A DNA stretch of 64,000 nucleotides from a bacterium MS4. GTDB lineage: Bacteria; Bacillota; Clostridia; Oscillospirales; Acutalibacteraceae. How positions within the stretch are numbered: position 1 is the first letter of the stretch; each line of letters begins with the position of its first letter. The stretch is from the NCBI GenBank assembly GCA_000752215.1, contig CCFG01000009.1, positions 62,001 through 126,000 on the forward strand, written 5' to 3'. Made by a program: the position numbers and the translations under genes. This document shows positions 1 through 21,673 of this stretch, in pieces. Below the pieces are notes generated by a model. That model had not been told where the DNA came from, did no database searches, and saw only the letters and a list, made by a program, of their open reading frames with translations.

Positions 1-191
1 TGGCGGCAGAAATGATCGCCGCCTCGTCGGGAATCGGCTACCTTGTGATGTTTGCCAGAGAGGTGTCTCAGCCGGACGTCATGCTGGTCGGCATCCTGAT
101 GATCGGACTGTTCGGCCTGCTGATCGATTTTCTGCTCGTTCACCTCGAAAAGCGCCTGCTGCGCTGGAATGAAACGGAAACGAAGGACTGA
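1..191 (+). CDS. ABC transporter permease, sulfonate/taurine type (3' end only)
   Basis: The reading frame is open from position 3 to a TGA at 189-191 and gives about 62 C-terminal residues. They contain the GIGYLVMFAREVSQPDVM segment and one further membrane helix, ending LLRWNETETKD. This closely matches the C terminus of the complete permease at 19792-20571 (GIGYLIMYARELSQP...LRWNETDGK), so the family is SsuC/TauC-like. The ATPase gene starts 10 bases downstream, so the two are one operon whose substrate-binding gene must lie left of the window. Substrate specificity cannot be read from this fragment; an alkanesulfonate, taurine or other small organosulfur compound is inferred from the family and the adjacent sulfur genes. 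Confidence 0.9.
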   Translation, partial: AAEMIAASSGIGYLVMFAREVSQPDVMLVGILMIGLFGLLIDFLLVHLEKRLLRWNETETKD

Positions 192-201
192 GGGGGTAGC
201 T

Positions 202-975
202 ATGAGCGGATTACTGTCTATCAATCACATCAAGAAAAATTTTATCATCGATAAAAAACAGGTGGAAGTCCTTTCAGATATCAGCCTGGAGGTAAACAAA
301 GGGGAATTCATCAGCATTATCGGTTCGAGCGGATGCGGAAAAAGCACGCTGCTGAAGCTGATCATCGGGCTGGAAAGCGCGACGGACGGACAGATTACTC
401 TGGACGGCAAGCCCCTTGTGGAGCCTTCGGAGCTGTGCGGCATGGTCTTTCAGGAATCTAGGCTGTTTCCCTGGTTCAACGTGGAGCAAAATATTGACTT
501 CGGTATCCCGAAAAGCGTCGGCGCGGCGGAGCGAAAAAAACGGATTGACGAGCATATCGCGCTGGTGGGGCTCACCGAGTTTACAAAGGCCAGGCCGAAC
601 CAGCTTTCGGGCGGAATGCAGCAAAGGGTCAGCATCGCCAGGGCGCTTGTCGGACAGCCTGAACTGCTGCTGCTCGACGAGCCCTTCGGAGCCCTCGACG
701 CCCTGACCCGCATCAATATGCAGCAGGAGATCCTGCGTATCTGGGAGGCGGAGAAAACAACGATGGTGCTTGTCACCCACGATATTGACGAAGCGATTTA
801 CTTGGGGGACCGGGTGGTGGTCATGTCCAAGCGCCCCGGGGCCATCAAAAAGATCATCCCTGTGGAGCTTTCCCGCCCCCGCAGCCGGACGAGTGAAAAC
901 TTTGCCGTCATGCGCCAGAAGGTATACCGCGAATTTCTGGAGGAATCCGAAATCACGCCGGATTACTATATCTGA
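202..975 (+). CDS. ABC transporter ATP-binding protein, sulfonate/taurine type
   Basis: 257 residues. The Walker A GSSGCGKST is at 41-49, the Q-loop in VFQESRLFPW near 84, the signature LSGGMQQR at 135-142, Walker B LLLLDEPFGALD from 155 and the switch His in VTHDIDEA at 193. This is the SsuB/TauB/NrtD subgroup that powers uptake of small organic anions. I chose the ATG at 202 because GAGGGGGT lies just upstream; an in-frame ATG at 169 would overlap the permease. It is a close paralogue of the ATPase at 20580-21359, sharing QESRLFPW, VEQNI and a tyrosine pair near the C terminus. A strong terminator follows. Confidence 0.93.
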   Translation: MSGLLSINHIKKNFIIDKKQVEVLSDISLEVNKGEFISIIGSSGCGKSTLLKLIIGLESATDGQITLDGKPLVEPSELCGMVFQESRLFPWFNVEQNIDFGIPKSVGAAERKKRIDEHIALVGLTEFTKARPNQLSGGMQQRVSIARALVGQPELLLLDEPFGALDALTRINMQQEILRIWEAEKTTMVLVTHDIDEAIYLGDRVVVMSKRPGAIKKIIPVELSRPRSRTSENFAVMRQKVYREFLEESEITPDYYI

Positions 976-1042: not shown

Positions 1043-1264
1043 TCATGCGATTTTTTTGTACTGCCCACCGCCCATGTAATAAAGAAACTCCACACGGTCT
1101 CCGTCCCGGACGGGGATAGAGCTGAAATCCTTCCGGCTGATGATCTCATCATTCAGCTGCACCGTTACATATTCCTGCATATCGACCTCGGTCTTTTCCA
1201 GGAGCTCCTGAACGGACATTTCCGCTTCAAAACTGTTTTGCTTGCCGTTGATCGTAATTATCAT
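1043..1264 (-). CDS. ThiS/MoaD-like sulfur carrier protein with C-terminal extension
   Basis: A 73-residue beta-grasp protein (MIITINGKQNSF... DGDRVEFLYYMGGG). Sulfur carriers of this family are adenylated and thiocarboxylated on a terminal Gly-Gly, but here the glycines (65-67) are followed by six more residues, QYKKIA. It starts two bases after the E1-like gene and is the last gene of the operon. Thiamine carriers end at GG, whereas the Wolinella methionine carrier HcyS carries a C-terminal residue removed by a JAMM protease. A JAMM gene is divergently encoded at 5190, so I infer an HcyS-type carrier for homocysteine synthesis. No thiG, thiH or molybdopterin gene is nearby. Confidence 0.85.
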   Translation of the reverse strand: MIITINGKQNSFEAEMSVQELLEKTEVDMQEYVTVQLNDEIISRKDFSSIPVRDGDRVEFLYYMGGGQYKKIA

Positions 1265-1266: not shown

Positions 1267-2109
1267 CTAAATCTCCTTACTTTCTTCGTGCCGGCCGGCA
1301 GGTGAAAAACTGCACGCCTTCAGTTCATAGTCGATCAGATGAGTGATGGTCGGGTGGTCTCCGCAAACCGCGCATTCAGGGTCACGGGTGATTTTAATTT
1401 TACGGAACTCCATTTTCGCCGCGTCGTAAGTAAGCAGGCTCCCGTTCAGCAGATCGCCGACTCCCAGCAGATACTTTATCGCCTCGGCCGCCTGAATCGT
1501 TCCGATGACGCCGCCCATGACCCCCAGCACCCCGGCCTGCTGGCAGGTCGGAACGGCGTCCGGCGGCGGGGGATTTTTAAATACGCAGCGGTAGCAGGGG
1601 CCTTCCCCGGGAAGGAACGTCATGGTCTGCCCCTGAAAACGGATGATTCCCGCGTGTGAAAAGGGCTTTTTCAGCATGACGCAGGCGTCGTTGATCAGAA
1701 ATTTCACGGGGAAATTGTCCGTGCCGTCGATGATGAAGTCGTAATCCCGGTCCCTGATAATATCCAAAATGTTTGCCGAAGTCGCATACTCGTGGTACGT
1801 AACGACGTCTACGTCGGGGTTCATCTGGTTGATCGTCTCTTTGCCGGAGAGTACCTTCGGCTTGCCGACGTCCTGCGTGCCGTGGATAATCTGGCGCTGC
1901 AGGTTGGAAAGGTCCACGGAATCCGCGTCGACCAGGCCGATGGTGCCCACGCCTGCGGCGCCCAGATACATGGCGGCGGGCGCGCCCAGCCCCCCGGTGC
2001 CGATGATCAGCACTTTCCCGTTCAGAAGCTTTTTTTGTCCGCTTACGCCGACATCGCTCAAAATAATGTGCCGTGAATACCGCTCAAGTTGTTCGTTCGT
2101 GAATTTCAT
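1267..2109 (-). CDS. ThiF/MoeB/HesA family adenylyltransferase (HcyF-like E1)
   Basis: 280 residues. The nucleotide-binding GTGGLGAP starts at residue 37 and is followed by the DADSVDLSNLQRQ segment. Zinc cysteines occur as CYRC (172, 175) and CAVC (246, 249), and the catalytic-loop cysteine is in PTCQQAG (189). The family adenylates the C-terminal glycine of a ThiS/MoaD-type carrier so that it can accept sulfur. It lies two bases before the carrier gene and overlaps the upstream response-regulator gene by four bases, showing translational coupling. Given the MetY, sulfite reductase and JAMM neighbours, an HcyF role fits better than thiamine or molybdopterin synthesis. Confidence 0.9.
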   Translation of the reverse strand: MKFTNEQLERYSRHIILSDVGVSGQKKLLNGKVLIIGTGGLGAPAAMYLGAAGVGTIGLVDADSVDLSNLQRQIIHGTQDVGKPKVLSGKETINQMNPDVDVVTYHEYATSANILDIIRDRDYDFIIDGTDNFPVKFLINDACVMLKKPFSHAGIIRFQGQTMTFLPGEGPCYRCVFKNPPPPDAVPTCQQAGVLGVMGGVIGTIQAAEAIKYLLGVGDLLNGSLLTYDAAKMEFRKIKITRDPECAVCGDHPTITHLIDYELKACSFSPAGRHEESKEI

Positions 2110-2510: not shown

Positions 2511-2531
2511 TCGGCAATCCTCCGTATCGTT

Positions 2532-3761
2532 TTATAGTCCGCCGACAGCGTTTTCAAAATCTTCGGTCAGGTCCTCAATATCTTCCAGACCGACGCTGAC
2601 ACGGATCAGATCTTCGTAAACGCCTGCGTTTTCCTTTTCCATCGTACTGCTGTTTGCATAGATCGTGGAAGCGGGATGGATGACCAGCGTCCTAAGGTCG
2701 CCTATATTTGCAATATTGCGCGCGTATTTCAAATGATTGATGATGAAAAAAGCGTTTTCCTTCGTACCGGCCCGCAGGGTCAATATCGCCCCGTAACCGC
2801 CGGAAAACTGCCGTCGGGCCGTTTGGTGCCACGGGCTGGATTCCAGCCCCGGATAGTTGACGTACGCTAACTTGGGATTGTCCGAAAGCCGTTGCGCGAG
2901 CTTCTGGGCATTGCCGCAGAGGCGCTCCATCCGGATGCCCAACGTTTCCAGCCCAAGACTGCACAGGAAGGCGTTGAACGGGGAAAAACAGGAGCCGGTG
3001 TTGCGGAACAGCCCGCTTCTCAGCTTGGAAAGGTAAGAAAATTCCCCGAACCTGACAAATTTTGCTATTGAGGGGTATCGCTCCGGGTCCCAGTCAAAGT
3101 TTCCGCTGTCGACAATGATCCCGCCGATGGAATTTCCGCTGCCGTTGATATACTTGGATACGGAATGCACGATGATGTCCGCGCCAAGCTCAATGGGGCG
3201 CAGAAGGAAGGGGGTGGCGGCGGTATTGTCGACGATTACCGGAATTTTGTGTCTGTGCGCCATTTCCGACAGGGCGGAGATGTCGGGAACATCCAGCTTT
3301 GGGTTTCCGATGGTTTCAACAAATATCAGCTTCGTACGCCCGGTGATCTGATTTTCAAAGCTTTCGGGCGTGCTGTCCGCGACATAGCGGGTGGTGATCC
3401 CGTAGCTTTCCAGATCGCGGAACAGGCCGATCGTTCCGCCGAAGATTCCTGCGGCGGAAAGGATTTCGTCCCCCGCGCTTAAAAGATTCAAAACGGACAG
3501 GGAGATGGCGGCCATGCCGGAAGCGCAGGCCACCGCCCCGATACCGCCTTCCAGCGCGGCGACGCGGCGCTCAAAAGCCTCGACAGTGGGATTGTTGATT
3601 CTGGTGTAGGAGAAGCCCGGCGCGCGGTTGTTGAAGATCGCCTCCAGCTCCTCCGCGGTTTTGTGTTCAAAGGCGCTGGACTGGTAAATGGGAGTATGGG
3701 TGGCTCCCGTTGCCCTGTCCGGGCCGTTGTTTTTGTGAAGCAGAGCAGTATTGAACCTCAT
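2532..3761 (-). CDS. metY: O-acetylhomoserine sulfhydrylase (MetY), PLP-dependent
   Basis: 409 residues, the usual length of the Cys/Met metabolism PLP family. YTRINNPT (52-59), VETIGNP (148-154), VDNT with Asp178, and the Schiff-base Lys203 in SVSKYINGSG are all present. The enzyme replaces the acetyl group of O-acetylhomoserine with sulfur to give homocysteine. Its start overlaps the TusA-like gene by four bases. The adjacent carrier, E1 and JAMM genes suggest the sulfur donor is a protein thiocarboxylate rather than free sulfide (inference from the Wolinella pathway). Cystathionine gamma-synthase or methionine gamma-lyase activity cannot be excluded from sequence alone. Confidence 0.88.
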   Translation of the reverse strand: MRFNTALLHKNNGPDRATGATHTPIYQSSAFEHKTAEELEAIFNNRAPGFSYTRINNPTVEAFERRVAALEGGIGAVACASGMAAISLSVLNLLSAGDEILSAAGIFGGTIGLFRDLESYGITTRYVADSTPESFENQITGRTKLIFVETIGNPKLDVPDISALSEMAHRHKIPVIVDNTAATPFLLRPIELGADIIVHSVSKYINGSGNSIGGIIVDSGNFDWDPERYPSIAKFVRFGEFSYLSKLRSGLFRNTGSCFSPFNAFLCSLGLETLGIRMERLCGNAQKLAQRLSDNPKLAYVNYPGLESSPWHQTARRQFSGGYGAILTLRAGTKENAFFIINHLKYARNIANIGDLRTLVIHPASTIYANSSTMEKENAGVYEDLIRVSVGLEDIEDLTEDFENAVGGL

Positions 3762-4006
3762 TCCAATCCGCCCTTTATCACGCCGAGCAGGTAGGTTCCG
3801 TCGCCGTTCTGAACCACCTCGATCACCTTGTGTTTTTCATTTTTCAAGCTGCGGGGAACATTCTGAATCGGTTCTCCGTCATTCAGCCGGATTTGCAAGG
3901 TCTGTCCGTTTTCCAGTTCCTCCAGTGCGACTTTTGTCTTTACGAAGGTGATCGGGCACACCACATCCGTAATATCGACAAAAGCGTCATAGCTTTGCTT
4001 GCTCAT
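3758..4006 (-). CDS. TusA/SirA-like sulfur transfer protein
   Basis: 82 residues. TusA-type proteins carry a persulfide on the Cys of a CPxP-like motif; here it is CPITFVKTK with Cys17, followed by ENGQTLQIRLNDGEP. The ATG at 4006 is supported by an upstream GAGGAGGC on this strand; longer in-frame starts would run through the sulfite reductase gene. It overlaps that gene by four bases at its start and metY by four bases at its end, so all three are translationally coupled. A role in handing sulfur between the reductase and the ThiS-like carrier is inferred; the Wolinella pathway as I recall it does not need a TusA. Confidence 0.85.
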   Translation of the reverse strand: MSKQSYDAFVDITDVVCPITFVKTKVALEELENGQTLQIRLNDGEPIQNVPRSLKNEKHKVIEVVQNGDGTYLLGVIKGGLE

Positions 4007-4869
4007 CGGATTGCCTCCTCCAGTTTTTTCTTTAATTGATCCTCGCCGATGCGGTCGATCGTCCGGCGGAAACGTTCGCCCGGTTTTCCGTGTTCCTGAA
4101 AGAAGGCGATGGCGGCGTCTACCACGCGGAACAGCTGTTCCTTCTCTGTAATCAGCGGAAGCAGCGGCTTCCCAAAGACCATATCGTTCCCAAAGGTGCC
4201 GCCGAAGGAGGTAATGTAGCCGCTTTTCCCCGACCAGGCATCCGTTGGGCAGGATTTTACGCATTTCCCGCAGTAAATGCAGCGGCTTTCGTCAAACGCA
4301 AGCGAATTTGGCCCGCGGCTGACGCTGATCGCCTTCACGGGGCATGCGGCCGCGCATACGCCGCAGTAGGTGCAGTCTCCGCTGTGCCACTCGGGGCGAA
4401 GCCCCCCTTTAATACCAAGGTCGTTTTCTTCCGCTTTCAGGCAGTTGTTTTTGCACCCGGTAATGCCGATTTTAAATTTGTGGGGCAGGTCCCTGCCGAA
4501 ATATTTGGCGTCCAGCTCCCTGGCAAGGCCGCTGGTCTCGATCAGACCGCTTCCGCAGATGGCGCTGCCCTGGCACGCGGTGACCGTGCGCACGCGCGGG
4601 CCGCATGCCCCCGGCTGAAGCCCTACTTCGGCCAGTTCGCCCTTTACCGCCTCCACGTCTGCAAAGTCGATAAACGGGATTTCAATTCCCTGCCTCGACG
4701 TCATATGGATATAGCCCTTTCCGTACAGATCGGCTATCTCGCTGACTTTTTTGATCTGATTTCCCTGTAGCTGACCGCCGACCACCCGGATTCTCAGCGA
4801 AAATTTATTGTTTTGAATCTGCCTCATAAATCCGCCTTTTTTAAGCTCTTTATATATCGACTCATCCAT
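4003..4869 (-). CDS. Ferredoxin-containing siroheme sulfite reductase (HcySA-like)
   Basis: 288 residues. The siroheme/4Fe-4S ligands are CQGSAIC (Cys99, Cys105, CX5C) and CKNNC (Cys139, Cys143, CX3C). A two-cluster ferredoxin insert follows: CTYCGVCAAACP (166-176) and CIYCGKCVKSCP (197-207). This is a small single-subunit sulfite/nitrite reductase, much shorter than assimilatory CysI. It is the first gene of the operon, with AAGGAGG nine bases from its ATG and a consensus promoter upstream. In the Wolinella pathway a similar enzyme delivers reduced sulfur to the carrier. Sulfite could come from imported sulfonates (inference). Confidence 0.88.
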   Translation of the reverse strand: MDESIYKELKKGGFMRQIQNNKFSLRIRVVGGQLQGNQIKKVSEIADLYGKGYIHMTSRQGIEIPFIDFADVEAVKGELAEVGLQPGACGPRVRTVTACQGSAICGSGLIETSGLARELDAKYFGRDLPHKFKIGITGCKNNCLKAEENDLGIKGGLRPEWHSGDCTYCGVCAAACPVKAISVSRGPNSLAFDESRCIYCGKCVKSCPTDAWSGKSGYITSFGGTFGNDMVFGKPLLPLITEKEQLFRVVDAAIAFFQEHGKPGERFRRTIDRIGEDQLKKKLEEAIR

Positions 4870-5189
4870 CTGAGTATTCCTCCTTACCGTACTTCTAAAA
4901 TGTACATTTAATTATAGAATACGGTCCCCGCTCTGACAAGGCGAATAAATTTAGCATAAGGGGGGAATATCTTTGGCTGTCAAAACCGGACGATTGACTT
5001 TGCCCGCCGGCATGTTAAACTGTTTTCATAGTGAATATAGTAAACATATGTATATTATATACTTTGAAGCACCGCATTTAAGGGAGATGCTTTGAAGTGT
5101 ACAGCCTTTTCTTCAACATTTTTATAACATATAAAACATATATGTTAAATTAAGTTAATATCTTTTTTAGAAGATACGGGAGGTTTATT
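4870..5189. promoter_or_regulatory. Divergent regulatory region between sulfite reductase and JAMM genes
   Basis: These 320 non-coding bases hold the minus-strand promoter and, on the plus strand, a weaker TTGACT-N16-TAAACT (4994-5021). A direct repeat CTTTGAAG occurs at 5062-5069 and 5090-5097, and a perfect 12-bp palindrome AACATATATGTT at 5135-5146, close to the JAMM start. The last two are candidate sites for the response regulator encoded at 6409. No known riboswitch motif was recognised. Confidence 0.5.
4911..4939 (-). promoter_or_regulatory. Sigma-A promoter of the sulfur operon
   Basis: On the minus strand TTGTCA (4934-4939) is separated by 17 bases from a perfect TATAAT (4911-4916), about 40 bases before the sulfite reductase ATG. 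Confidence 0.8.
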
Positions 5190-5603
5190 GTGATAATATT
5201 AAAAAAACAGCAGATAGGGGAAATGATACGCCACAGCATTGCCGGGCTTCCCAACGAAAGCTGCGGTCTGATCGCAGGAACCGTCGAGAACGATTGTAAA
5301 ACGATTGAAAGGGTATATCTGCTGAGGAACATCGACGAAAGCCCGGAGCATTTTTCCATGGATGTGCGGGAGCAGTTTGCGGCGGTCGCGGATATGAGAA
5401 AGAACGGCTGGAAGCTGATCGGCAATTTTCACAGCCATCCGCAGACGCCGTCCCGCCCTTCCCGGGAGGACATCCGGCTGGCCTTTGACCCGTCGCTGAG
5501 CTATTTGATCCTTTCCCTTGCGAACAGCCAGGAGCCGGTGCTGAACAGTTTTCTGATACGGAATCAATCCGTGGAGAAAGAAGAAATAAAAAGTTTGGAG
5601 TGA
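5190..5603 (+). CDS. JAMM/Mov34 (Mec+-type) metalloprotease, HcyD-like
   Basis: 137 residues with a complete JAMM zinc site: Glu23 in NESCGLI, then HSHPQTPSRPSREDI giving His81, His83, Ser91 and Asp94 (HxHx7Sx2D). Bacterial members such as M. tuberculosis Mec+ and Wolinella HcyD remove residues from the C terminus of a sulfur carrier protein. The obvious substrate is the carrier at 1043, with QYKKIA after its glycines. The GTG start at 5190 is set by GGGAGG seven bases upstream. It is the first gene of a plus-strand unit with a histidine kinase (seven bases downstream) and an AraC-type regulator. Confidence 0.88.
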   Translation: MIILKKQQIGEMIRHSIAGLPNESCGLIAGTVENDCKTIERVYLLRNIDESPEHFSMDVREQFAAVADMRKNGWKLIGNFHSHPQTPSRPSREDIRLAFDPSLSYLILSLANSQEPVLNSFLIRNQSVEKEEIKSLE

Positions 5604-11799: not shown

Positions 11800-11813
11800 C
11801 GGAGGCTAATGGA

Positions 11814-12263: not shown

Positions 12264-12309
12264 TCGGGGAACGGCAGATGATCAGCAGAGGGGAAATCCC
12301 TCAAAGGAG

Positions 12310-12588
12310 GTGAGCACGATACACGTTGTTACAGTATGCGGTATGGGTTTCGGAACCAGCCTGATGCTGCTGATGTCGATCAAGGATATTGGGAAAAAGC
12401 ACGGCATTGAAATCAGCGGCGAAGCGGTTGACCTGGGCTCATACAAGGGAAAAAGATGCGATTTCATTGCGGCGTCCTCGGAAATCGCAAAGCAGATTCA
12501 AGGGGAAAATGTCCCGGTTGTTTCCATTGACAATCTTTTGAGCAAAAGTGAAATTGAGGAAAAAATAATGCCGTTATTAACGAAATAA
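12310..12588 (+). CDS. PTS EIIB component, ascorbate (UlaB/SgaB) type
   Basis: About 92 residues if GTG 12310 is used. The phosphocysteine lies in VTVCGMGFGTSLML, the P-loop of lactose/ascorbate-type EIIB. The start is uncertain: the perfect ribosome binding site AAAGGAGGTGA (12303-12313) covers the GTG, and the codon at normal spacing is ATA (12319-12321), which would give a protein beginning IHVVTVCG, the usual length for EIIB. So either GTG within the site or a non-AUG start is used, or an ATG was lost here. It sits between EIIA and EIIC genes. Confidence 0.85.
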   Translation: MSTIHVVTVCGMGFGTSLMLLMSIKDIGKKHGIEISGEAVDLGSYKGKRCDFIAASSEIAKQIQGENVPVVSIDNLLSKSEIEEKIMPLLTK

Positions 12589-12610
12589 CGAGCGAAAGGG
12601 AGGGACCACC

Positions 12611-13894
12611 ATGGTATCTTTTTTAGTCAAACTTCTTAGCGAACCGGCTATCGTACTGGGTCTTGTGGCATGTGTCGGCCTGATTGCGATGAAAAACAAG
12701 CCCTCGACCGTCGTTACCGGAACGGTAAAAACCATTCTGGGCTTTATGGTTCTGAGCGCGGGCTCCACGATCATCTGCGGTGCTTTAGTCCCGTTCAGCA
12801 CAATGTTCACCCAGGCGTTCGGCCTGGCTGGAATCGTCCCGGAGGATAATTCCCTTGTGGCGGCGGTACAGACGGTCCTCGGCTTTGAAACGCCGCTGAT
12901 TATGCTGTTCTCCTTTGTCATTAACCTGATTCTCGCGAGAATCACACCGTTTAAATACATCTTCCTGACAGGGCATATGATGTTTTCCTTTGCGGGAACC
13001 ATGGCCATTGTGCTCGACCAGCTCGGCATACGCGGCTGGACTGCCGTCGCGATCGGCTCTGTGGTAGAAGGCGTTTCCATGGTTCTGTTCCCGGCCATTG
13101 CCCAGCCCTTTGTCCGCAAGATCCTGAAAACGGACGACGTGGCCTTCGGCTTCTGGGGAAGCTCCCTTGTCTGCCTGAGCGGCTGGGTCGGCGGGCTGAC
13201 GGCGAAGAAGGACAGAGACCCTGAAAAGGACACCTGGGAATCGGTCAATGTTCCGGAGAAGCTGAGCTTTTTAAAGGATATGTCCGTCCTGATGGCGATC
13301 GTCATGGCTGTTGTCTATGTTGTCACGGCGATTGCTGCCGGACCCACAGTGGTCAATGAACTGAGCGGCGGGTCAAACTACATTATCTACGCGCTCCTGC
13401 AGGGCCTGACCTTCGTTGCCGGCGTCATCGTCCTTTTACAGGGCGTGCGTATGTTCCTTGGCGAAATCATTCCCGCGTTCAAGGGCATCAGTGAAAAGCT
13501 GGTTCCCGGTGCGCGGCCCGCGCTGGATATCCCGATTTTCTATGCCAGCGGCCCGGTTGCTACGACCGTTGGATTTATCGCCGCGATGGTCGGCGGATTC
13601 ATTGCAACGACCATTACCTCACAGATGTCCGTCGTGGTTTTGCCCGGCGTCATCGGGCTGTACTTTATGGGCGCGGCGGCCGGTGTGTTCGGCGACAAGC
13701 TGGGCGGCAAGCGCGGCGCCGTCGTGTCGGGCCTGTTCCTCGGCTTTGTGTTCACCATGCTGGTCGCGGTGGCTTACCCGCTGATCGATGTGGCGCGCTA
13801 TGGCGTAAAGGGACTGTGGTTCGCATCCTCCGACGCGATCATTGTTTCCGCAGTCATGAAGCTGCTGGGCATGCTGTTCGGCATCGCACATTGA
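12611..13894 (+). CDS. PTS EIIC component, ascorbate (UlaA/SgaT) family
   Basis: 427 residues with about ten hydrophobic membrane segments, matching the UlaA/SgaT permease length. GHMMFSFAGTMA and the repeat-like second half IPIFYASGPVATTVGF are characteristic. It transports and phosphorylates its substrate with the EIIA and EIIB upstream. AAAGGGAGGG precedes the ATG. Although the family is named for ascorbate, the downstream lactonase, aldolase and creatininase genes replace the ula catabolic genes, so the substrate is probably another sugar acid or lactone (inference). Confidence 0.9.
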   Translation: MVSFLVKLLSEPAIVLGLVACVGLIAMKNKPSTVVTGTVKTILGFMVLSAGSTIICGALVPFSTMFTQAFGLAGIVPEDNSLVAAVQTVLGFETPLIMLFSFVINLILARITPFKYIFLTGHMMFSFAGTMAIVLDQLGIRGWTAVAIGSVVEGVSMVLFPAIAQPFVRKILKTDDVAFGFWGSSLVCLSGWVGGLTAKKDRDPEKDTWESVNVPEKLSFLKDMSVLMAIVMAVVYVVTAIAAGPTVVNELSGGSNYIIYALLQGLTFVAGVIVLLQGVRMFLGEIIPAFKGISEKLVPGARPALDIPIFYASGPVATTVGFIAAMVGGFIATTITSQMSVVVLPGVIGLYFMGAAAGVFGDKLGGKRGAVVSGLFLGFVFTMLVAVAYPLIDVARYGVKGLWFASSDAIIVSAVMKLLGMLFGIAH

Positions 13895-13983
13895 TTCCTC
13901 ATTCCGTTTTATGTACATCTTAATCGGGCTCACGTTAAGCTGTGCATTCCTATGTCTGTGAGCCGGAAAGGTCGGTATTCAAA

Positions 13984-14913
13984 ATGAAATATGCAAGAAC
14001 GGTTCTTGGCGATATCAAAGCGGAGGAGATGGGCTTTACATATACGCACGAGCATCTTCACGCGGTTCCGCCTCCGTGCCAGAAGGACAGGGACCTGGAA
14101 CTCAGCAGCTATGAAAAGAGTACTGCCGAATTGCTGAATTTTAAGGAAGTGGGCGGCTGCACGCTGGTGGAGGCCTCCACTCTGGATTACGGCAGGGACC
14201 TCAACGTGCTTCGGAAAATGTCCGAAGAAACCGGGGTACATGTTATTGCCACTTCCGGATTCAATAAGCATATTTATTATCCGGAATGGGTCGAAGAAAA
14301 ATCCGTGGAAGAAATTGCGGATCTCCTCAGCAACGACGTTCTGGTCGGCGGGGACGGGGGCAGCTCAAGGGCCGGTTTCATGAAAATCGGTACCTACTAC
14401 AACCTGATCCATCCGCTGGAGAAAAAGACCATTACCGCCACGGCGATTGCCCAGAAAAAATGCGGAGCGCCTATCTGGGGACACACCGAGGCCGGAACGA
14501 TGGGCATGGAAGTGCTCGATCTTCTGGAGAGCAACGGGGTCGACCTGACCACCACGGCTCTGGGCCATCTTGACAGAAACGCGGACGAGTATTACCTGTT
14601 GAAGCTTGCCGACCGCGGCATCTACATCCAGTTTGACGGCCCCGGCAAAGTAAAGTATTATCCGGACAGTGTCCGCGTCGCCCTGATCAAATCCCTGATC
14701 GCCCACGGTCATATTGACCAGCTCCTGATTTCCGGCGACATGGGAAGGGCCTCCTATCTGGAAGCCTACGGCGGCGGACCCGGCTTCCGCTATATCAAAA
14801 CGAAGTTTATTCCGCGCCTTCTGGATGAAGGAGTGACGCAGGCCGAGATCGAGAAGATCTTTATCAAAAATCCGCAGCGCTGGCTCGCGGTCTTCGAGGG
14901 TCCGGAATGCTGA
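13984..14913 (+). CDS. Phosphotriesterase-family metallohydrolase, probable phospho-sugar lactonase
   Basis: 309 residues from the ATG at 13984; an upstream in-frame ATG at 13942 lacks a better site. Metal ligands His22 and His24 in TYTHEHLH, a Lys in AGFMKIGTYYN at the bridging-lysine position, His in WGHTEAGT and LGHLDRN, and Asp in SGDMGR give a full binuclear phosphotriesterase site. Some PTS-linked members of this family hydrolyse furanose lactone phosphates in Listeria and Mycoplasma. The position after an ascorbate-type PTS suggests the same here. It overlaps the aldolase gene by seven bases. Confidence 0.85.
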   Translation: MKYARTVLGDIKAEEMGFTYTHEHLHAVPPPCQKDRDLELSSYEKSTAELLNFKEVGGCTLVEASTLDYGRDLNVLRKMSEETGVHVIATSGFNKHIYYPEWVEEKSVEEIADLLSNDVLVGGDGGSSRAGFMKIGTYYNLIHPLEKKTITATAIAQKKCGAPIWGHTEAGTMGMEVLDLLESNGVDLTTTALGHLDRNADEYYLLKLADRGIYIQFDGPGKVKYYPDSVRVALIKSLIAHGHIDQLLISGDMGRASYLEAYGGGPGFRYIKTKFIPRLLDEGVTQAEIEKIFIKNPQRWLAVFEGPEC

Positions 14914-15533
14914 CGGAAAGTAAACTCGTCGCGATTATCCGGGATGTGGACGCGCAGTACGTGACCGGCATTGTGCAGGTACTGCTCCGGGAAGGCATCG
15001 ACACGGTAGAGGTCTCCCTCAGCAACCCCGAAAGGGGATATGCCTGCATTGAGGCTTTACAGCGCGCTTTTTCAAAGGATCAGCTTCATCTGGGAGTCGG
15101 GACCGTTGTCCGCAGGAGCGAGGTGGACCGGGTGTCGGAGCTGGGCGCCGATTTCATCCTTACCCCCGGCTATGACGACGAGCTGGTCGGATACGCTCAG
15201 GAAAAGGGAATGGAGATTCTGCCCGGCGTGTTTACGCCGGGGGAAGTCCAGAAGGCGCTGAACAGGGGAATCACTCTCCTGAAGCTGTTCCCCGCGGATT
15301 CTCTTCCGATGAACTATGTTTCCAACCTGAAAGGTCCGTTTCCGCAGGCTGAATTTGTCGCGGTCGGCGGGGTTACCAGAGACAATTTTACCGATTTTCT
15401 GAAGCACGGCTTCCACGGAGCCGCCATTGGCGGCGGGCTGGTACCGCGCAGGGCCACCGACGCGGACCTGCCCGCTATCGCGGAGAACGCCAGAGCGTTC
15501 GTCGGCGCACTGGGAAAGCAGGCGAAGGAATGA
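14907..15533 (+). CDS. KDPG/KHG aldolase family protein
   Basis: 208 residues, the class I 2-keto-3-deoxy-6-phosphogluconate/4-hydroxy-2-oxoglutarate aldolase fold. Glu35 in VEVSL, the GVGTV motif (63-67) and the Schiff-base Lys126 in LLKLFPA are conserved. Such enzymes split a 2-keto-3-deoxy sugar acid phosphate into pyruvate and an aldehyde. It overlaps the lactonase gene before it (7 bases) and the creatininase gene after it (4 bases), so all three are translationally coupled. The true substrate is unknown. Confidence 0.88.
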   Translation: MLTESKLVAIIRDVDAQYVTGIVQVLLREGIDTVEVSLSNPERGYACIEALQRAFSKDQLHLGVGTVVRRSEVDRVSELGADFILTPGYDDELVGYAQEKGMEILPGVFTPGEVQKALNRGITLLKLFPADSLPMNYVSNLKGPFPQAEFVAVGGVTRDNFTDFLKHGFHGAAIGGGLVPRRATDADLPAIAENARAFVGALGKQAKE

Positions 15534-16261
15534 TATATCGCGTACAGGACATGACACGGCTGCAGGTTGCGGAGCGCATCCGGCAGTATCCGGTCGCCAT
15601 CGTGCCGATCGGTTCCACCGAGCAGCACGGGCCGCACCTCCCTTTGGGCACCGACGTTTTTCTGGCGGAAAAGCTGGCGGAGCTCGTTTCGGATGAAACG
15701 GGGGCGCTGGTATTCCCTTCACTGAATTTCGGCTATTCCTGGGGCTGGCGCGACATTGCCGGCACGGTATCTCTGCAGCGGGAGCATTTTCAGATCGTTC
15801 TGACAGATATCGTGAAAAGCATGGAACGCTACGGGATTCAGCTTCTGATCTTCCTGAACGGCCACGAGGCAAACGGCTCTTCGATGAAATACGCAATCCG
15901 GGACGTATCCGACGATACCTCCATGAAAGTCCTTGGAATGTTCTATCCCGGACTGGGCGAGGTCTATGAAAAATATATGGAATCCCCGACTTGGGGAGGA
16001 ATGTTCCACGCCTGCGAATTTGAAACCTCGTTGATGCTTTCCGCGGATGAATCGAAGGTAAATATGCAGCTGGCCTGTAAGGAGTATCCTCCGCGCCCGG
16101 ATTTCTACGGCATGGACGACTCGTCGATCGGGGAAATCAGCAAGAGCGGCGTGTACGGCGATCCGACGCTGGCCACAAAAGAAAAGGGCGACCGCATGTT
16201 CGCCGAATTTACCCGTAGGATTGTTGAGATCATTCATAAGGCCTATCCGTGTGAAAAATAG
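15530..16261 (+). CDS. Creatininase family metallohydrolase
   Basis: 243 residues. The metal-binding signature PIGSTEQHGPHLPLGTD (Glu31, His33, Asp42), NGHEANG and CEFETS match the creatinine amidohydrolase/FAPy deformylase family. Members hydrolyse amide or related bonds in small cyclic compounds. It is the last gene of the PTS operon and overlaps the aldolase by four bases. Its role may be hydrolysis of an amide or lactone in the imported compound, but no specific activity can be assigned. Confidence 0.85.
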   Translation: MIYRVQDMTRLQVAERIRQYPVAIVPIGSTEQHGPHLPLGTDVFLAEKLAELVSDETGALVFPSLNFGYSWGWRDIAGTVSLQREHFQIVLTDIVKSMERYGIQLLIFLNGHEANGSSMKYAIRDVSDDTSMKVLGMFYPGLGEVYEKYMESPTWGGMFHACEFETSLMLSADESKVNMQLACKEYPPRPDFYGMDDSSIGEISKSGVYGDPTLATKEKGDRMFAEFTRRIVEIIHKAYPCEK

Positions 16262-16630
16262 ACGGCGGTTTTCCTGCACCGCAGATCGGACAGAAGCGGG
16301 ATGCCTGAAAGCATCCATGAAATTCCCCATCCTTTAGTCAAAGCGGGACGAAGTTTTTATAGCTCATGAACTTCTATGTATGTAAATATGAAAAGGTGCG
16401 TTTCCAGAGTATGGGAGCGCACCTTTGCCGTATGATCGTATCTGTCGATCCAATGCGTAAACCGCACCCCGATTATCGTTCCATATACGGAACGATAATC
16501 GGGGTGTTTTTTATGCGGTTCACAGCATTGTAAAGTTCTATCCAAACAATTTCTGCTATCATGCAAAAGTTAGTCATGTTGTAGAAAAGATTTCCAAGTT
16601 ATATAATTTATATATGTTTAGTAGATTATA
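16262..16630. other. Long intergenic region after the PTS operon
   Basis: No supported gene. It holds a 9-bp hairpin (AAAGGTGCG at 16392-16400 with CGCACCTTT at 16418-16426) and the 80-base inverted repeat/terminator listed separately. The remainder is AT-rich; the stretch ATATAATTTATATATG near 16597-16617 could carry a promoter for the downstream leader, but no good -35 box is seen. Confidence 0.5.
16451..16530 (+). terminator. Extended inverted repeat containing an intrinsic terminator
   Basis: The core stem pairs 16466-16482 with 16489-16505 (17 bp, ATATAC-type loop) and is followed by GTTTTTT, a strong plus-strand terminator for the PTS operon. The symmetry continues outward: AACCGCA (16460-16466) with TGCGGTT (16514-16520) and CAATGC (16451-16456) with GCATTG (16525-16530). 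The total of 80 bases is longer than termination needs and may be a palindromic repeat element. Confidence 0.75.
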
Positions 16631-16800: not shown

Positions 16801-16902
16801 ATGCTTTATCATTTTATAATCCCAAGGGGGGTTCGGGAGTACTGTTGCGGCTCCTGTAGATGGGAACGGCCCCGGTTCGGTCATATTCAAAAAAATGGTT
16901 GA
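16801..16902 (+). CDS. Small Cys-rich ORF coupled to radical SAM gene
   Basis: 33 residues, MLYHFIIPRGVREYCCG then SCRWERPRFGHIQKNG, with a CCxxC group at 15-19. The ATG is six bases after AAGGGGGAG (16786-16794). Its TGA (16900-16902) overlaps the start of the radical SAM gene (ATG 16895), which has no ribosome binding site of its own. It is therefore either a leader peptide that couples translation or a genuine small product, possibly a substrate of the enzyme. No homologue was recognised. It could also be a chance ORF. Confidence 0.45.
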   Translation: MLYHFIIPRGVREYCCGSCRWERPRFGHIQKNG

Positions 16903-18184
16903 TTATTCAATGAAAAAGAAAGTAGGCGGATACAGCTTGAGTAATGATCGCAATTGGCGGGAAAAAGAGCTCAGCCTTTCGGAAGTGATTCGGAAATATC
17001 CCGACGTTTCCCCATTTGTCATTATAAAAACCGATGTGCAGCGCAGAGGAGTTTTCTATACCGAAAAAGCCCTCGCCGCCGTCGATCCCGATGTCCATCT
17101 TACCAAATTGCGCAGCGATTACAGCAACAAGGAGGATTTGACGCCTGTTTCTCTTACGATGCGGGACGGCACCTCCATTAACGTAGGGGACGAGGGCAGC
17201 GGGGAGGCACATGGCGACAGAGACCCCTATCAGGTGGATGTGGTGGACGGAAAAATCGTCTTGGTGGATGAAGGAAACGTCATTGAAGAAGTTTCTTACT
17301 GGGAAAAGCCGGATTATTATGAAAAAGTAACCTCACGGGGTACTCCCATGTGGCATGTGGTTTCTCCCCGCCCGCAGCGGCTGTGCATCCATCCTCACCA
17401 GCAATGCGACTTTTGGAAAACGCCCGGCTATGGCTGCAAATTCTGTACCATGTCCGCCGTTTACCACGCGGGCAACAAGCCGGAGCTGCTGAACACGCAG
17501 GATATTGTGGAGACCGTCGCCGAGGCGCTGAAGGAGCCGGGGCGCAATGTCAATATCTTCCTGACGGGCGGAACGCTCAGAGGCGGGGAAAATTTCCTGG
17601 ACGAGGAGCTCGACTGTTATATTGACATTCTGGCAGGAATCACCGGGCTGTTTGGGGGAAAGCGTTTCCCGAGCCAGCTGATCAGCACGGCCTTCTCACG
17701 GGAGCAGCTCCGGCGCCTGCACGACAGCACGGGCCTTGCTTCCTATACGGCGGACCTCGAGGTGCTCAATAAAAGCCTGTTTGAATGGATCTGCCCGGGC
17801 AAGGCGGCGACGATCGGTTATGAGGAATGGAAAAACCGTTTGTATGAGGCTGTGGAGATATTCGGGCGCGGCAATGTGGACACCGGAATCGTGGCGGGTG
17901 TGGAGCTTGCGCAGCCAAACGGTTTTCAAACCGAGGAAGAGGCGCTGGAATCCACCCTCTCCGAAGCGGATGAAATATCCTCCCACGGTGTGGGCGTGGT
18001 CGGCTGCGTGTGGAAGGTGCATCCCGGTTCTATCTTTCGTAAGCAGACGTCTCCCAGCCTGGAATATTACGTGCGTCTTGCCACGGGGCTTGACCAAATA
18101 CGCAGAAAATACAACCTTAGTATCGATATGGACAATTATCGGCGGTGCGGCAACCATCCCGATACGGATCTTTCCAGAATTTAG
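16895..18184 (+). CDS. Radical SAM protein of unknown function
   Basis: 429 residues. The cluster motif is CDFWKTPGYGCKFC (Cys171, Cys181, Cys184; CX9CX2C), preceded by Cys164 and HPHQQ, followed by FLTGGTLRGGEN (the GGE-like SAM-binding step) and a TIM-barrel-like remainder; there is no C-terminal SPASM cysteine cluster. Variant spacing also occurs in some QueE enzymes. The N-terminal 160 residues resemble nothing I recognise. The start is uncertain: ATG 16895 or 16910, neither with a good ribosome binding site, so coupling to the upstream ORF is likely. A PNPOx-like gene and sulfonate-type ABC genes follow, suggesting radical chemistry on the imported compound. Confidence 0.82.
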   Translation: MVDYSMKKKVGGYSLSNDRNWREKELSLSEVIRKYPDVSPFVIIKTDVQRRGVFYTEKALAAVDPDVHLTKLRSDYSNKEDLTPVSLTMRDGTSINVGDEGSGEAHGDRDPYQVDVVDGKIVLVDEGNVIEEVSYWEKPDYYEKVTSRGTPMWHVVSPRPQRLCIHPHQQCDFWKTPGYGCKFCTMSAVYHAGNKPELLNTQDIVETVAEALKEPGRNVNIFLTGGTLRGGENFLDEELDCYIDILAGITGLFGGKRFPSQLISTAFSREQLRRLHDSTGLASYTADLEVLNKSLFEWICPGKAATIGYEEWKNRLYEAVEIFGRGNVDTGIVAGVELAQPNGFQTEEEALESTLSEADEISSHGVGVVGCVWKVHPGSIFRKQTSPSLEYYVRLATGLDQIRRKYNLSIDMDNYRRCGNHPDTDLSRI

Positions 18185-18196
18185 GGGGGAATCAGA

Positions 18197-18670
18197 ATGA
18201 GCGTGATACTCAGCGAGGAAATCAGGCGGGCGCTTGCCGATCCCGGAACGGTCCGGGCCGTGGCCACCGTGGAGAAGGACGGCGATCCGCATATCGCATT
18301 CAAACAGTCTCTCAGGCTGCGCGGGGATGGAAACCTCGAGTACGACGAAGGGATCGAAACATCCCAAACCAATAAAAATCTTGTGTATTCCATCTGGTTC
18401 GGGAAAACCGTTTCCATCAGCCTGGTTACCCCGGACCGGCGCAGCTACAACATCGTGGGGCGTCCCCTTCGGGTGCTGATAGCGGGAAGGGAATTCCGTA
18501 CGCATTACACAGCGGCCCGGGAAGAACGGGGAGATATCGATCTGGCCGCTGTATGGGTGATCGAACCGGTCGCGGCATGTGAACAGAGCTTTGACAAACG
18601 CAGGCTGGAAGAAGAGGCGGCACATCCCCTGCTACAGCATTTGGACCGCCTGACCGTAACCGGTCAATAA
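18197..18670 (+). CDS. Pyridoxamine 5'-phosphate oxidase-like FMN-binding protein
   Basis: 157 residues with the split-barrel flavin fold pattern: an N-terminal helix EEIRRALADPG, then VRAVATVEKDGDPHIAFKQS and a later VYSIWFGKTVSISLV strand. TTAGGGGGGAATC precedes the ATG, 12 bases after the radical SAM stop. Such proteins bind FMN, F420 or heme and act as reductases or oxidases. Position between a radical SAM enzyme and an importer suggests it supplies electrons or processes the same substrate (inference). Authentic PdxH is longer and is not suggested here. Confidence 0.75.
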   Translation: MSVILSEEIRRALADPGTVRAVATVEKDGDPHIAFKQSLRLRGDGNLEYDEGIETSQTNKNLVYSIWFGKTVSISLVTPDRRSYNIVGRPLRVLIAGREFRTHYTAAREERGDIDLAAVWVIEPVAACEQSFDKRRLEEEAAHPLLQHLDRLTVTGQ

Positions 18671-18701
18671 CTATTTTTAAAATTTGAGGAGAAATTTCAT
18701 A

Positions 18702-19772
18702 ATGAAAAACCATTTAAAAAGGAGTAAGCTTTTCATTCCGGTGCTGATCCTGGCGACCCTTCTGTCGGTATCCGGGTGCTCGTCCGCGGCTCCGTCCTCC
18801 GGTACCTCGCAGGCGGGTGGCTCCGCTCCTGCGTCCTCCGCTTCCGCTTCGGCGCAGGAGTCCGAAAAAGATTACGGCGGGCTGACCATCCATATCGCTA
18901 CCCAGCCCAGCCAGACCCAGCCCGCCCTGGCGGAGGAGCTTGGCTATTTTAAGGAGGAATTCGGAAAGAACAACATCAATTTCGATGTGCGTACCTTTGC
19001 TTCCGGCCCCCCGATCATCGAGGCCTTCGCCGCCGGCGATATCGATATCGGCCAGGTGGGCGCACAGCCGGCTGTTCAGGCGGCTGCCAACGATATTCCA
19101 CTTAAAATCATCGCCGCTTACATGACCGGCAACGGCAAGGGCGACGGCCTGCTTGCCCGAAAGGGTTCCGGCATCAATGCCCTCGCGGATATCCGCGGGA
19201 AGAAAGTCGGCGTGCAGATCGGCTCCAATTCCCACATGCTCCTGCTGCGGATTCTGGAGTCGGTCAACCTGACCGAAAAAGATATCCAGCTGGTAAACCT
19301 TTCTTTCACAGACATCAACACCGCGCTGGAAGCCGGCAATATTGACGCCGGCGTCAGCCAGCTTCCGCAGCTGCAGACTGTAATCGACAACGGGACCGCC
19401 ACCCTGCTGGAGGTGGACGGCTCTAAATTTCCAAGAACATCGAGCGTCATTATCGTTTCGGAGGAATTTACCAAAAAATATCCCGAGCTGATTTCCCGCA
19501 TCCTGAAAACGCTGGACAAAACGGTCACTTATTGCAAGGAGCACGAGGACGAGGCGATCAAGATTCTTTCCAAGAGAAACGGCGTGGCGGAAAACTCTTA
19601 TAAAGCCTCCTTTGCTTCCACCGATTTTTCATTATATCTGGACAAAGAACGGCTTGGCACTCTACAGGACACCAAGGAGTTCCTGCAGGAACAGGGTACC
19701 ATAAAAGACGTGGACCTAAATCAGATTATCGACACCTCTTATCTGGAGGAAGCAGGAATCAGCAAAAATTAA
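18702..19772 (+). CDS. ABC transporter substrate-binding lipoprotein, sulfonate/taurine (SsuA/NMT1) type
   Basis: 356 residues. Signal peptide with lipobox LLSVSGCSS (Cys26), then an Ala/Ser-rich linker to about residue 55. The mature domain has the SsuA/TauA pattern: LAEELGYFKEEF, FASGPPIIEAFAAGDIDIGQVG, IRGKKVGVQIGS and a GVSQLPQ motif. The ATG at 18702 is preceded by GAGGAGA; a TTG at 18684 lies upstream of that site. It captures the substrate for the permease and ATPase that follow. Nitrate or thiamine-precursor binding is less likely but not excluded. Confidence 0.9.
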   Translation: MKNHLKRSKLFIPVLILATLLSVSGCSSAAPSSGTSQAGGSAPASSASASAQESEKDYGGLTIHIATQPSQTQPALAEELGYFKEEFGKNNINFDVRTFASGPPIIEAFAAGDIDIGQVGAQPAVQAAANDIPLKIIAAYMTGNGKGDGLLARKGSGINALADIRGKKVGVQIGSNSHMLLLRILESVNLTEKDIQLVNLSFTDINTALEAGNIDAGVSQLPQLQTVIDNGTATLLEVDGSKFPRTSSVIIVSEEFTKKYPELISRILKTLDKTVTYCKEHEDEAIKILSKRNGVAENSYKASFASTDFSLYLDKERLGTLQDTKEFLQEQGTIKDVDLNQIIDTSYLEEAGISKN

Positions 19773-19791
19773 CCGGAAGGGACGCTTTTGT

Positions 19792-20571
19792 ATGACTTCA
19801 AACCTGAAAAACCGGTTCGTCAAGATCGGCCTGGGGTGCGTTCTGCCGGCGGTGCTGATCCTTACCTGGGAAATTCTGGGGCGGCAGGGAATCATCAACC
19901 GCTCCATTTTTCCCTATCCCACACGTATTTTTGAAACCTATCTGGATATGGTGCGGAAGGGCAGCATACAAAAGGATCTAACCGTAAGTGCGGGGCGGGT
20001 CATCAAGGGCTTTTGTATCGGTTCCTCGCTCGGGCTGGGCATCGGCGTTGTCATCGGCCTTTCCAAAACGGCAAACAGCCTTGCGGCCTCCATCATCGGG
20101 CTTCTGCGCCCGATCCCTATGATCGCGTGGGTCCCTCTGCTTATTTTGTGGATGGGGATCGACGAAGCTTCCAAGGTGACGCTCATTTCAATCGGTACCT
20201 TTTGGCCGGTGGTGATAAACACCAGCCGCGGGATACTCAACAGCGATAAAAAGCTGCTGGAGGTGGGCACTATTCTGGAGAAAACCCGATTCCAGATGCT
20301 TACCAAGGTGGTTCTGCCCGGCGCGTTTCCCTTTATTTTTACCGGCCTGCGTCTGGGGGTGAGCAGCGCGTGGACCTGTGTCGTAACGGCGGAAGCCATC
20401 GCGGCCGCCTCGGGCATCGGCTACCTGATCATGTATGCGCGCGAGCTTTCACAGCCGCCCGTAATGTTCTCCGGCGTAATCACCATCGGATTGGTGGGGT
20501 TGCTTCTCGATACGGTTTTGCAGCGGATCGAAAAGCACGTTTTACGCTGGAACGAGACTGATGGAAAGTAG
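19792..20571 (+). CDS. ABC transporter permease, sulfonate/taurine (SsuC) type
   Basis: 259 residues with about six membrane segments. The EAA loop region reads LLEVGTILEKTRFQMLTKVVLPGAFP in pieces (LEVG...KVVLPGA), the contact site for the ATPase. The C terminus, GIGYLIMYARELSQP then LRWNETDGK, is nearly the same as the truncated permease at the window start, so the two transporters are recent paralogues or of one subfamily. It lies 19 bases after the binding-protein gene. Confidence 0.92.
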   Translation: MTSNLKNRFVKIGLGCVLPAVLILTWEILGRQGIINRSIFPYPTRIFETYLDMVRKGSIQKDLTVSAGRVIKGFCIGSSLGLGIGVVIGLSKTANSLAASIIGLLRPIPMIAWVPLLILWMGIDEASKVTLISIGTFWPVVINTSRGILNSDKKLLEVGTILEKTRFQMLTKVVLPGAFPFIFTGLRLGVSSAWTCVVTAEAIAAASGIGYLIMYARELSQPPVMFSGVITIGLVGLLLDTVLQRIEKHVLRWNETDGK

Positions 20572-20579
20572 ATATCGAA

Positions 20580-21359
20580 ATGGCTGAAAATAAAAACATA
20601 GATATAGCAGGCGTCTCAAAGACCTTCAAGCTTTCGTCCGGGGACCTCCCGGTGCTCAACAACATTGATTTGCAGATCGAAAGCGGTGAGTTTATCAGTG
20701 TGGTGGGTGCCAGCGGGTGTGGAAAAAGCACCCTTTTACGGATTCTTTCCGGGCTGGAAACAGCCACCACGGGCGAGGTGAGAATCGGCGAGCGCAGAGT
20801 GGAGCGGCCCAGCGTGCTTACGGGTGTGATCTTCCAGGAATCCAGACTGTTCCCATGGCTGAACGTAGAGCAAAATATCGCGTTCGGCATCCATCAAAAA
20901 ATCGATAAGGAGCAAAGGGTACGGTCCATCGCGGAGCATATTGAACTGGTGGGGCTGAAAGGCTTTGAAAAGGCGCTGCCAAAGCAGCTTTCCGGCGGAA
21001 TGCAGCAGCGGGTGAGCATCGCCCGTGCGCTGATCAATCAGCCCAACGTGCTTCTGCTGGATGAGCCGTTCGGCGCGCTGGACGCTCTCACCAGAATCCA
21101 CATGCAGAATGAGATTCTGCGGATATGGGACAAAGAAAAATCGACGATGGTTTTAGTCACCCATGACGTGGACGAGGCGATTTTTTTAAGCGACCGGATT
21201 GTGCTGCTGTCAAATCGTCCGGGAGAGGTCAAAAAAGTGATCTCCGTCGGCCTGAGCCGCCCCAGGGACCGCAGCAGCGCCCGCTTCATCGAAATCCGCA
21301 AAGAAATTTACACCCATTTTTTCGAGGATTCTTCCCTGTCGATCGAATACTATCTGTAG
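20580..21359 (+). CDS. ABC transporter ATP-binding protein, sulfonate/taurine (SsuB) type
   Basis: 259 residues. Walker A GASGCGKST (43-51), Q-loop in IFQESRLFPW, signature LSGGMQQR (137-144), Walker B LLLDEPFGALD (from 158) and VTHDVDEA are intact. It begins eight bases after the permease stop and ends the six-gene unit that starts at the small ORF. It is paralogous to the ATPase at 202-975. Confidence 0.93.
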   Translation: MAENKNIDIAGVSKTFKLSSGDLPVLNNIDLQIESGEFISVVGASGCGKSTLLRILSGLETATTGEVRIGERRVERPSVLTGVIFQESRLFPWLNVEQNIAFGIHQKIDKEQRVRSIAEHIELVGLKGFEKALPKQLSGGMQQRVSIARALINQPNVLLLDEPFGALDALTRIHMQNEILRIWDKEKSTMVLVTHDVDEAIFLSDRIVLLSNRPGEVKKVISVGLSRPRDRSSARFIEIRKEIYTHFFEDSSLSIEYYL

Positions 21360-21597: not shown

Positions 21598-21673
21598 TGG
21601 TGGACGTTATAGAACTCGAATCTATGACCTTTCGCACGTCAAGCGAATGCTCTACCAGCTGAGCTAAACGTCC
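21598..21673 (-). tRNA. tRNA-Val (anticodon GAC)
   Basis: 76 nt cloverleaf with encoded CCA. Acceptor GGACGTT pairs with AACGTCC; D stem GCTC/GAGC with loop AGCTGGTA; anticodon stem TTCGC/GCGAA with loop TTGACGT (anticodon GAC, U33 present); variable AGGTC; T stem ATAGA/TCTAT with loop TTCGAGT; discriminator A. It stands alone with its own promoter and terminator. Confidence 0.95.

Follow-up and report, generated by a model that had tools for sequence, protein, structure and literature searches.

A variant radical SAM gene paired with a split-barrel gene and an SsuABC-type importer: a candidate system for oxygen-independent sulfonate sulfur release in an Acutalibacteraceae bacterium

To our knowledge, it is an open question how fermenting anaerobes without Xsc, IslAB or Isr acquire sulfur from sulfonates. 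The question is raised by a locus of the bacterium MS4 (Acutalibacteraceae), which lies in a stretch of 64,000 nucleotides (assembly GCA_000752215.1, contig CCFG01000009.1, positions 62,001 to 126,000 of the forward strand; hereafter, the window) and in which a gene for a radical SAM protein stands beside genes for a small split-barrel protein and a sulfonate-type importer. An initial annotation of the window had proposed that these genes form an oxygen-independent desulfonation module. The proposal gains partial support from a binding protein of a sulfonate family, from the finding of no SsuD-family protein in the genomes that carry the set and, independently, from a linkage to genes that convert sulfite to homocysteine; the C-S cleavage and the substrate are what we infer.

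The locus consists of five open reading frames (ORFs) in a tight plus-strand run at window positions 16895-21359, separated from one another by 12, about 31, 19 and 8 bp. From 5' to 3', their products are a variant radical SAM protein of 429 aa (rSAM1, 16895..18184), a small PNPOx/HupZ-like split-barrel protein of 157 aa (18197..18670), a lipoprotein-type substrate-binding protein of the SsuA family with the NMT1 fold (18702..19772, with an ATG start at 18702), an SsuC-like permease of the ATP-binding cassette (ABC) type (19792..20571) and an SsuB/TauB-like ABC ATPase (20580..21359), the last three being of the SsuABC type. In order to find relatives of this set, a species-genome collection (84,980 species, contigs of at least 3 kb) was scanned with two peptide patterns, a procedure by which members without the patterns would be missed. 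Nine loci out of 60 matching stretches were confirmed (L018-L026), and the two copies in MS4 itself bring the total to 11 loci from 10 genomes. In all of them, the split-barrel gene stands next to the radical SAM gene (in L026 with broken frames), and ABC genes adjoin the pair in every locus except L026; the five-gene grouping is therefore more than chance. The initially described set of importer, radical SAM and small-protein genes was thus confirmed, with its start, previously placed at 16801, moved to 16895, where the radical SAM ORF begins; position 16801 opens a separate 33-codon frame.

On balance, the comparison of sequences suggests that the cluster is probably an oxygen-independent assimilatory desulfonation system, in which the radical SAM and split-barrel pair releases sulfite. 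The observations behind this reading are the gene composition, the strict pairing of the two genes and their repeated linkage to sulfite-to-homocysteine genes. In such a system, the SsuABC-type importer would take up an organosulfonate, and a 5'-deoxyadenosyl radical would abstract a hydrogen adjacent to the C-SO3 carbon, whereupon the C-S bond would break and sulfite would leave. The radical SAM protein would thus be the C-S cleaving enzyme and sulfite its product, with the split-barrel partner donating or accepting an electron. A short sulfite reductase would then reduce the sulfite, and a module of TusA, ThiS-like, E1-like, JAMM and MetY proteins would pass the sulfur on to homocysteine.

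The linkage was observed in MS4 itself. Its second radical SAM gene, 57% identical to the window copy and located about 19 kb to the left of it, is likewise accompanied by genes for a binding protein, a split-barrel protein, a permease and an ATPase, with metK in front. The genes from metK to the permease are found immediately to the left of the window (L011 11223-16192), and the ATPase gene, the last of the set, was located by the genome search at 169..975 of the window, plus strand. The metK gene (over cut-off) adjoins the set in both L011 and L021, as expected, because a radical SAM enzyme consumes S-adenosylmethionine. The second set is faced by a sulfur module at window positions 1043-5603. 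On the minus strand, this module encodes a ThiS-like sulfur carrier (HcyS-like, 1043..1264, Pfam ThiS over cut-off), an E1-like adenylyltransferase of the MoeB/ThiF family (HcyF-like, 1267..2109, family search), an O-acetylhomoserine sulfhydrylase-like protein (MetY-like, 2532..3761, TIGR01326 458.8 bits, below the cut-off of 495.1), a TusA/SirA-like protein (3758..4006, Pfam TusA over cut-off) and a short siroheme-type sulfite reductase-like (Sir) protein with ferredoxin-like cluster motifs (4003..4869, TIGR02912 140.5 bits, below 324.1); beyond them, on the plus strand, lies a gene for a JAMM/JAB metalloprotease-like protein (HcyD-like, 5190..5603, 66.7 bits with a desampylase model whose cut-off is 130). 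These gene names are family-level, because several of the products do not reach the cut-off of the model that fits them best.

Another run of Sir, TusA, ThiS, E1 and JAMM genes, with no MetY seen there, is located on contig C8 (L045) of the same genome. In front of it stand genes for sulfate import (a binding protein, CysT and CysW, each over cut-off), together with those for AprA, CysD and CysN, which also pass their cut-offs, and for an AprB-like protein, which scores below. Since the sulfite-handling genes are common to the two runs and only the front end differs, the radical SAM set appears to replace sulfate activation. Nothing else speaks as strongly for sulfite as the product of the radical SAM pair. 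In likening the module to the Wolinella protein-thiocarboxylate methionine route, we rely on gene roles which we take to apply there. The resemblance concerns this route as it is cited in PMC5764234. The C8 copy belongs to a known type of neighbourhood, namely that of ThiS, JAB, E1 and SirA with sulfate genes in row 4e of Iyer et al. 2006 (PMC1779556), whereas in the C9 copy, on the window contig, genes for the Ssu-type importer, the radical SAM protein and the split-barrel protein take the place of those for sulfate import and activation.

The outside carriers are two Synergistaceae and one each of Accumulibacter, Lachnospiraceae, Family XIII, Desulfovibrio, Spirochaetaceae, Treponema and Oscillospiraceae, all represented by metagenome-assembled genomes (MAGs); L021 is the only one whose title names a gut (roe deer rumen). 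In four of the 10 genomes, the sulfite-to-homocysteine module, complete or in part, is a neighbour of the set. Besides MS4, these are L019 (Synergistaceae), with MetY, JAMM, E1, ThiS and Sir as neighbours; L022 (Family XIII), where MetY precedes the set and the genes from Sir through JAMM follow it; and L025 (Treponema), where a ThiS-like gene, JAMM and three siroheme-synthesis genes stand beside the set and Sir is on another contig. The gene orders differ across the four genomes, and the three outside ones come from three phyla. A rough binomial estimate that takes the genomes as independent puts the chance of linkage in at least four of the 10 at 2e-4 to 4e-7, according to the genome size and copy number assumed. 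Relatives of the short sulfite reductase were found in 8 of the 10 carrying genomes (E limit 1e-15, all matches below 1e-100) as against 12 among 291 genomes belonging to the class (E limit 1e-60), a contrast that is only indicative, because MS4 is in both counts and the taxonomy of the groups differs.

The carriers were also analyzed for other sources of sulfite. PF01507 (CysD/CysH) has matches in six of the 10 and none in the L019, L022, L023 and L025 MAGs, and PF01747 (Sat) matches Desulfovibrio only. Thus, the module-linked outside genomes show no such sulfate activation gene. The aerobic SsuABC-SsuD/SsuE system shares the importer type with the window set, but the carriers have the radical SAM and split-barrel pair, and the luciferase-type family of SsuD (PF00296) was detected in none of the 10, with a control that matched in 10 of 14 (the search did not extend to SsuE and TauD). 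No carrier contains an Xsc over the TIGR03457 cut-off, while matches below it occur in nine of the 10 and likewise in all 14 controls.

The window radical SAM protein scores 175.7 bits with the NCBIfam model NF045502 (variant_rSAM, cut-off 125), and the second copy scores 157.9 bits. With Pfam Radical_SAM (PF04055), the window protein reaches 25.5 bits, under the cut-off of 29.5, and the locus was also unlisted at an E-value of 0.001. The cluster motif is CX9CX2C (Cys171, Cys181 and Cys184) rather than CX3CX2C; the three cysteines are invariant in all 11 sequences, with the spacing CX8CX2C in L022 and L026, and two further cysteines, Cys300 (CPGKA) and Cys418 (CGNH), are also invariant. The predicted structure is a barrel (predicted local distance difference test, pLDDT, 84.4; predicted template-modelling score, pTM, 0.86), and together with the three-cysteine motif this modelled fold places the protein in the radical SAM superfamily. 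The closest folds are lipoyl synthase (Z 17.9, 237 residues aligned) and HydE (Z 17.4, 240 residues), both with a root-mean-square deviation of 3.4. MqnE, NosL, NifB and others rank within a few Z units of these, so that the fold comparison names no function. A sequence search of the PDB gave nothing significant. The MSMEG_0568 family of the nitrilase cluster is distant sequence kin and shares a CX9CX2C-like motif; it differs in that the window protein scores 51 bits against a TIGR04043 cut-off of 303.7 and in that the neighbours of MSMEG_0568 are nitrilase and acetyltransferase genes. No paper containing "MSMEG_0568" was found in the open-access PubMed Central (PMC) literature. The protein is rare in the class, where it was detected at E below 1e-20 in one of 291 genomes, that of MS4. 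Plasmid homologues are present in 417 records, of which the 20 listed are 24-27% identical; no named sulfur genes were found in the two plasmid neighbourhoods inspected.

HupZ is a heme protein, and it ranks first among the folds similar to the modelled split barrel of the 157-aa partner (pLDDT 86.6; TM by target 0.82), followed by F420- and flavin mononucleotide (FMN)-binding split-barrel proteins, with a TM of 0.71 for a Desulfovibrio FMN-binding protein. The partner scores 12.8 bits (E 0.16) with Pfam PNPOx (PF01243, cut-off 28.1) and has no NCBIfam match. Of the PNPOx-like flavin protein described initially, the PNPOx-like split-barrel fold is thus retained as predicted by the model, whereas the family score and the best fold match leave a flavoprotein as a possible assignment. 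The partner would presumably carry a redox cofactor, either flavin or heme.

The assignment of the importer to the sulfonate type was upheld by the binding protein, which scores 197.6 bits with TIGR01728 (SsuA family, cut-off 163.5). The cut-off is passed by seven of the eight binding proteins scanned, L022 being left out of the scan: besides the window copy, these are the second copy (187.8 bits), L018 (164.9), L019 (233.2), L020 (213.6), L021 (188.0) and L025 (170.6), with L023 (71.8) below it. The permease reaches no NCBIfam equivalog cut-off, nor does the ATPase among the best 25 of its 194 matches listed, and "SsuABC-type" is therefore a family-level label for these two proteins. The solved structures closest to the window binding protein are E. 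coli SsuA and TauA. In TauA, the sulfonate contacts described in the cited part of PMC6906117 are the Gln30 side chain and the backbone amides of Gly61, Gly79 and Thr132. A glutamine matching Gln30 is kept in five of nine binding proteins (window, L018, L019, L020 and L023; alignments read by eye). The ligand of the window importer would accordingly be a sulfonate, and the loss of the amine-binding Glu106 of TauA (count from the alignment) argues weakly against taurine. In the Desulfovibrio MAG, a malate/L-lactate dehydrogenase-family gene (L023 8325-9368) lies directly before the radical SAM gene; its product scores 229 bits with the L-sulfolactate dehydrogenase model NF040650 (cut-off 500), which may hint at a hydroxy-sulfonate substrate.

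The initial annotation recognized no described system of this composition. No paper linking this radical SAM and split-barrel pair to sulfonates was found in the open-access PMC literature, but a radical SAM protein has already been paired with an Ssu importer in IsrBHDK and SsuCAB (PMC11423573). This closest known system serves anaerobic assimilation of isethionate, and its Isr is counted in PMC11423573 as third, behind Xsc and IslAB, among the enzymes that desulfurize isethionate independently of oxygen. It shares the Ssu-type importer, the radical SAM protein and the oxygen-independent release of sulfite for assimilation. It differs in its need for nitrogenase-like H, D and K proteins, which have no match in MS4. 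IsrB is reported as closest to BciD in SWISS-prot (PMC11423573); here, the window set is told apart from Isr by gene composition. The main text of PMC11423573 contains none of the words "flavin", "pnpox" and "pyridoxamine". By analogy, we judge the role of the set to be like that of IsrBHDK-SsuCAB, yet the defining feature of Isr is missing in MS4. The isethionate lyase IslA/IslB, according to excerpts of PMC6453916 and PMC6386719, shares an oxygen-sensitive radical C-S cleavage that yields sulfite; it is a glycyl radical enzyme, whereas none was seen in the window-type set, where the radical SAM enzyme would act directly.

Several observations weigh against the desulfonation reading. MS4 has sulfate assimilation genes, and its sulfite reductases therefore do not depend on the radical SAM set; a sulfate-type binding protein is found beside the set in L025. 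In six of the 10 genomes, no linkage to the sulfur module was seen in the flanks examined. Three of them have short contigs with little room (L020, 12.6 kb; L021, 10.9 kb; L024, 3.6 kb), while L018, L023 and L026 have enough flank to show the module and contain none. The class genomes that served as background differ taxonomically from the carriers, and the completeness of the outside MAGs is unstated, so that gene absences in them are soft. Four other NF045502 members in the class, 22-23% identical, have no sulfur-module gene in the stretches examined around them. Finally, the sulfonate glutamine is not kept in the binding proteins of the second copy, L021, L022 and L025, and those of L022 and L023 are very divergent, which means that not every copy need bind sulfonates. 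The latter points would also fit a substrate that is an organosulfur compound other than a sulfonate (a sulfone, thioether, sulfinate or other), from which sulfide or a thiol would be formed while the adjoining sulfite reductase serves another source. This is also favoured by L021, where nitrogenase-like genes of a family that includes thioether-cleaving enzymes (in the cited part of PMC12552129) stand beside the set. We nevertheless regard such a substrate as rather unlikely, since sulfite reductase is a recurring neighbour, joined in L025 by siroheme genes, and most of the scanned binding proteins pass the sulfonate-family cut-off.

More doubtful still is a reading in which the pair leaves the C-S cleavage to another desulfonating enzyme and activates that enzyme or builds its cofactor, as has been considered for IsrB and as the activase IslB does. 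The role of IsrB beside IsrHDK is left undecided in the cited sections of PMC11423573, and MS4 has six glycyl radical enzymes, of which two score as pyruvate formate-lyases, one scores as a 4-hydroxyphenylacetate decarboxylase large subunit and three are unnamed by equivalog models; no IslA model is among the NCBIfam matches listed, and an IslA-like enzyme may be encoded elsewhere in MS4. However, neither a glycyl radical enzyme nor any other candidate that recurs throughout was seen in the set across the 11 loci, whose ORFs were named by similarity to the MS4 genes and in part by family search. Nitrogenase-like proteins, searched with an L021 query, match in six of the 10 carriers; their genes adjoin the set in one of 11 loci (L021), and no match was found in MS4 and three other carriers, which rules out dependence on a nitrogenase-like enzyme for MS4. 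The least probable explanation, in our view, is that a ligand free of sulfur (for example a pyrimidine, a nitrate-like compound or a phosphonate) is imported and processed, with the sulfur neighbourhood due to coincidence or co-transfer. Family-level homology cannot fix the ligand, and about 11 kb, including a phosphotransferase system (PTS)/aldolase operon, separate the window copy from the sulfur genes; against this stands the module linkage in four genomes, with its differing gene orders, its spread over phyla and its low chance expectation.

The desulfonation system proposed here could possibly constitute a new class of desulfonases, which we hold with less assurance than the assimilatory role itself: a CX9CX2C radical SAM enzyme with a constant split-barrel cofactor protein would by itself eliminate sulfite from sulfonates, by a mechanism that uses neither a glycyl radical nor thiamine diphosphate nor nitrogenase-like chemistry, and would be patchily distributed across distant phyla. 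The set is a two-protein candidate for oxygen-free release of sulfonate sulfur in Bacillota and in Synergistaceae, spirochaete, Desulfovibrio and Accumulibacter MAGs, and would, if the reading is true, extend radical SAM chemistry by a new reaction. In a tree that included a Streptomyces outgroup, full support was reached by none of the inner branches. In an unrooted tree without the outgroup, a split of 100/98 parts the two MS4 copies. On the side of the window copy are the sequences from Synergistaceae, Accumulibacter, Lachnospiraceae and Family XIII, with L018 closest to it (94/93); the second copy falls among those from spirochaetes, Desulfovibrio and Oscillospiraceae. This pattern suggests transfer. 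Base composition gave no signal of a recent foreign origin (GC of 0.542 for the set and 0.532 for the window).

The surroundings of the set were also inspected. Between it and the preceding operon lies a terminator-like hairpin with a 19-pair stem (16464..16507, plus strand), the longest among six terminator-like sites in the region, against 6.6 expected from shuffles. The 33-codon frame at 16801-16902 encodes three cysteines, has a purine-rich ribosome site, overlaps the radical SAM start and possibly specifies a leader peptide; as a regulator, it was discarded, with no consistent counterpart across the eight other upstream stretches scanned. A riboswitch for S-adenosylmethionine or another ligand before the set was likewise discarded, as Rfam at the gathering cut-off matched two tRNAs only (window, L011, L045, L021 and L022). 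A tRNA gene is located at 21601-21673 on the minus strand, about 240 bp past the set. The operon between the two radical SAM sets (9871-16261) encodes a PTS-type regulator and PTS EIIA/B/C-like proteins (PTS names by eye), a phosphotriesterase-family protein, a 2-keto-3-deoxy-6-phosphogluconate-type aldolase and a creatininase-family amidohydrolase. To the left of the window, a single run (L011 3711-9148, by eye) contains genes for an amidohydrolase, membrane proteins, a SelA/DgaE-like enzyme and an aldolase-like protein.

Elsewhere, L046 7830-15090 contains genes for a 570-aa protein with a 3'-phosphoadenosine 5'-phosphosulfate reductase domain (PF01507) and a cysteine-desulfurase-like protein, together with a very large ORF, and is possibly a DNA sulfur-modification island (by eye). 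In five nitrogenase-like regions of four carrier genomes, SsuABC-like genes stand alongside in L061, L063 and L064 and an ABC ATPase gene in L065, with no recognised ABC gene in L062 (a 3.4-kb contig); no CX3CX2C radical SAM frame was seen in the five regions. The nitrogenase-like H/D/K sets of L061, L063, L064 and L065 are perhaps further sulfur-scavenging systems, and a similar H/D/K set is carried by a Treponema saccharophilum plasmid.

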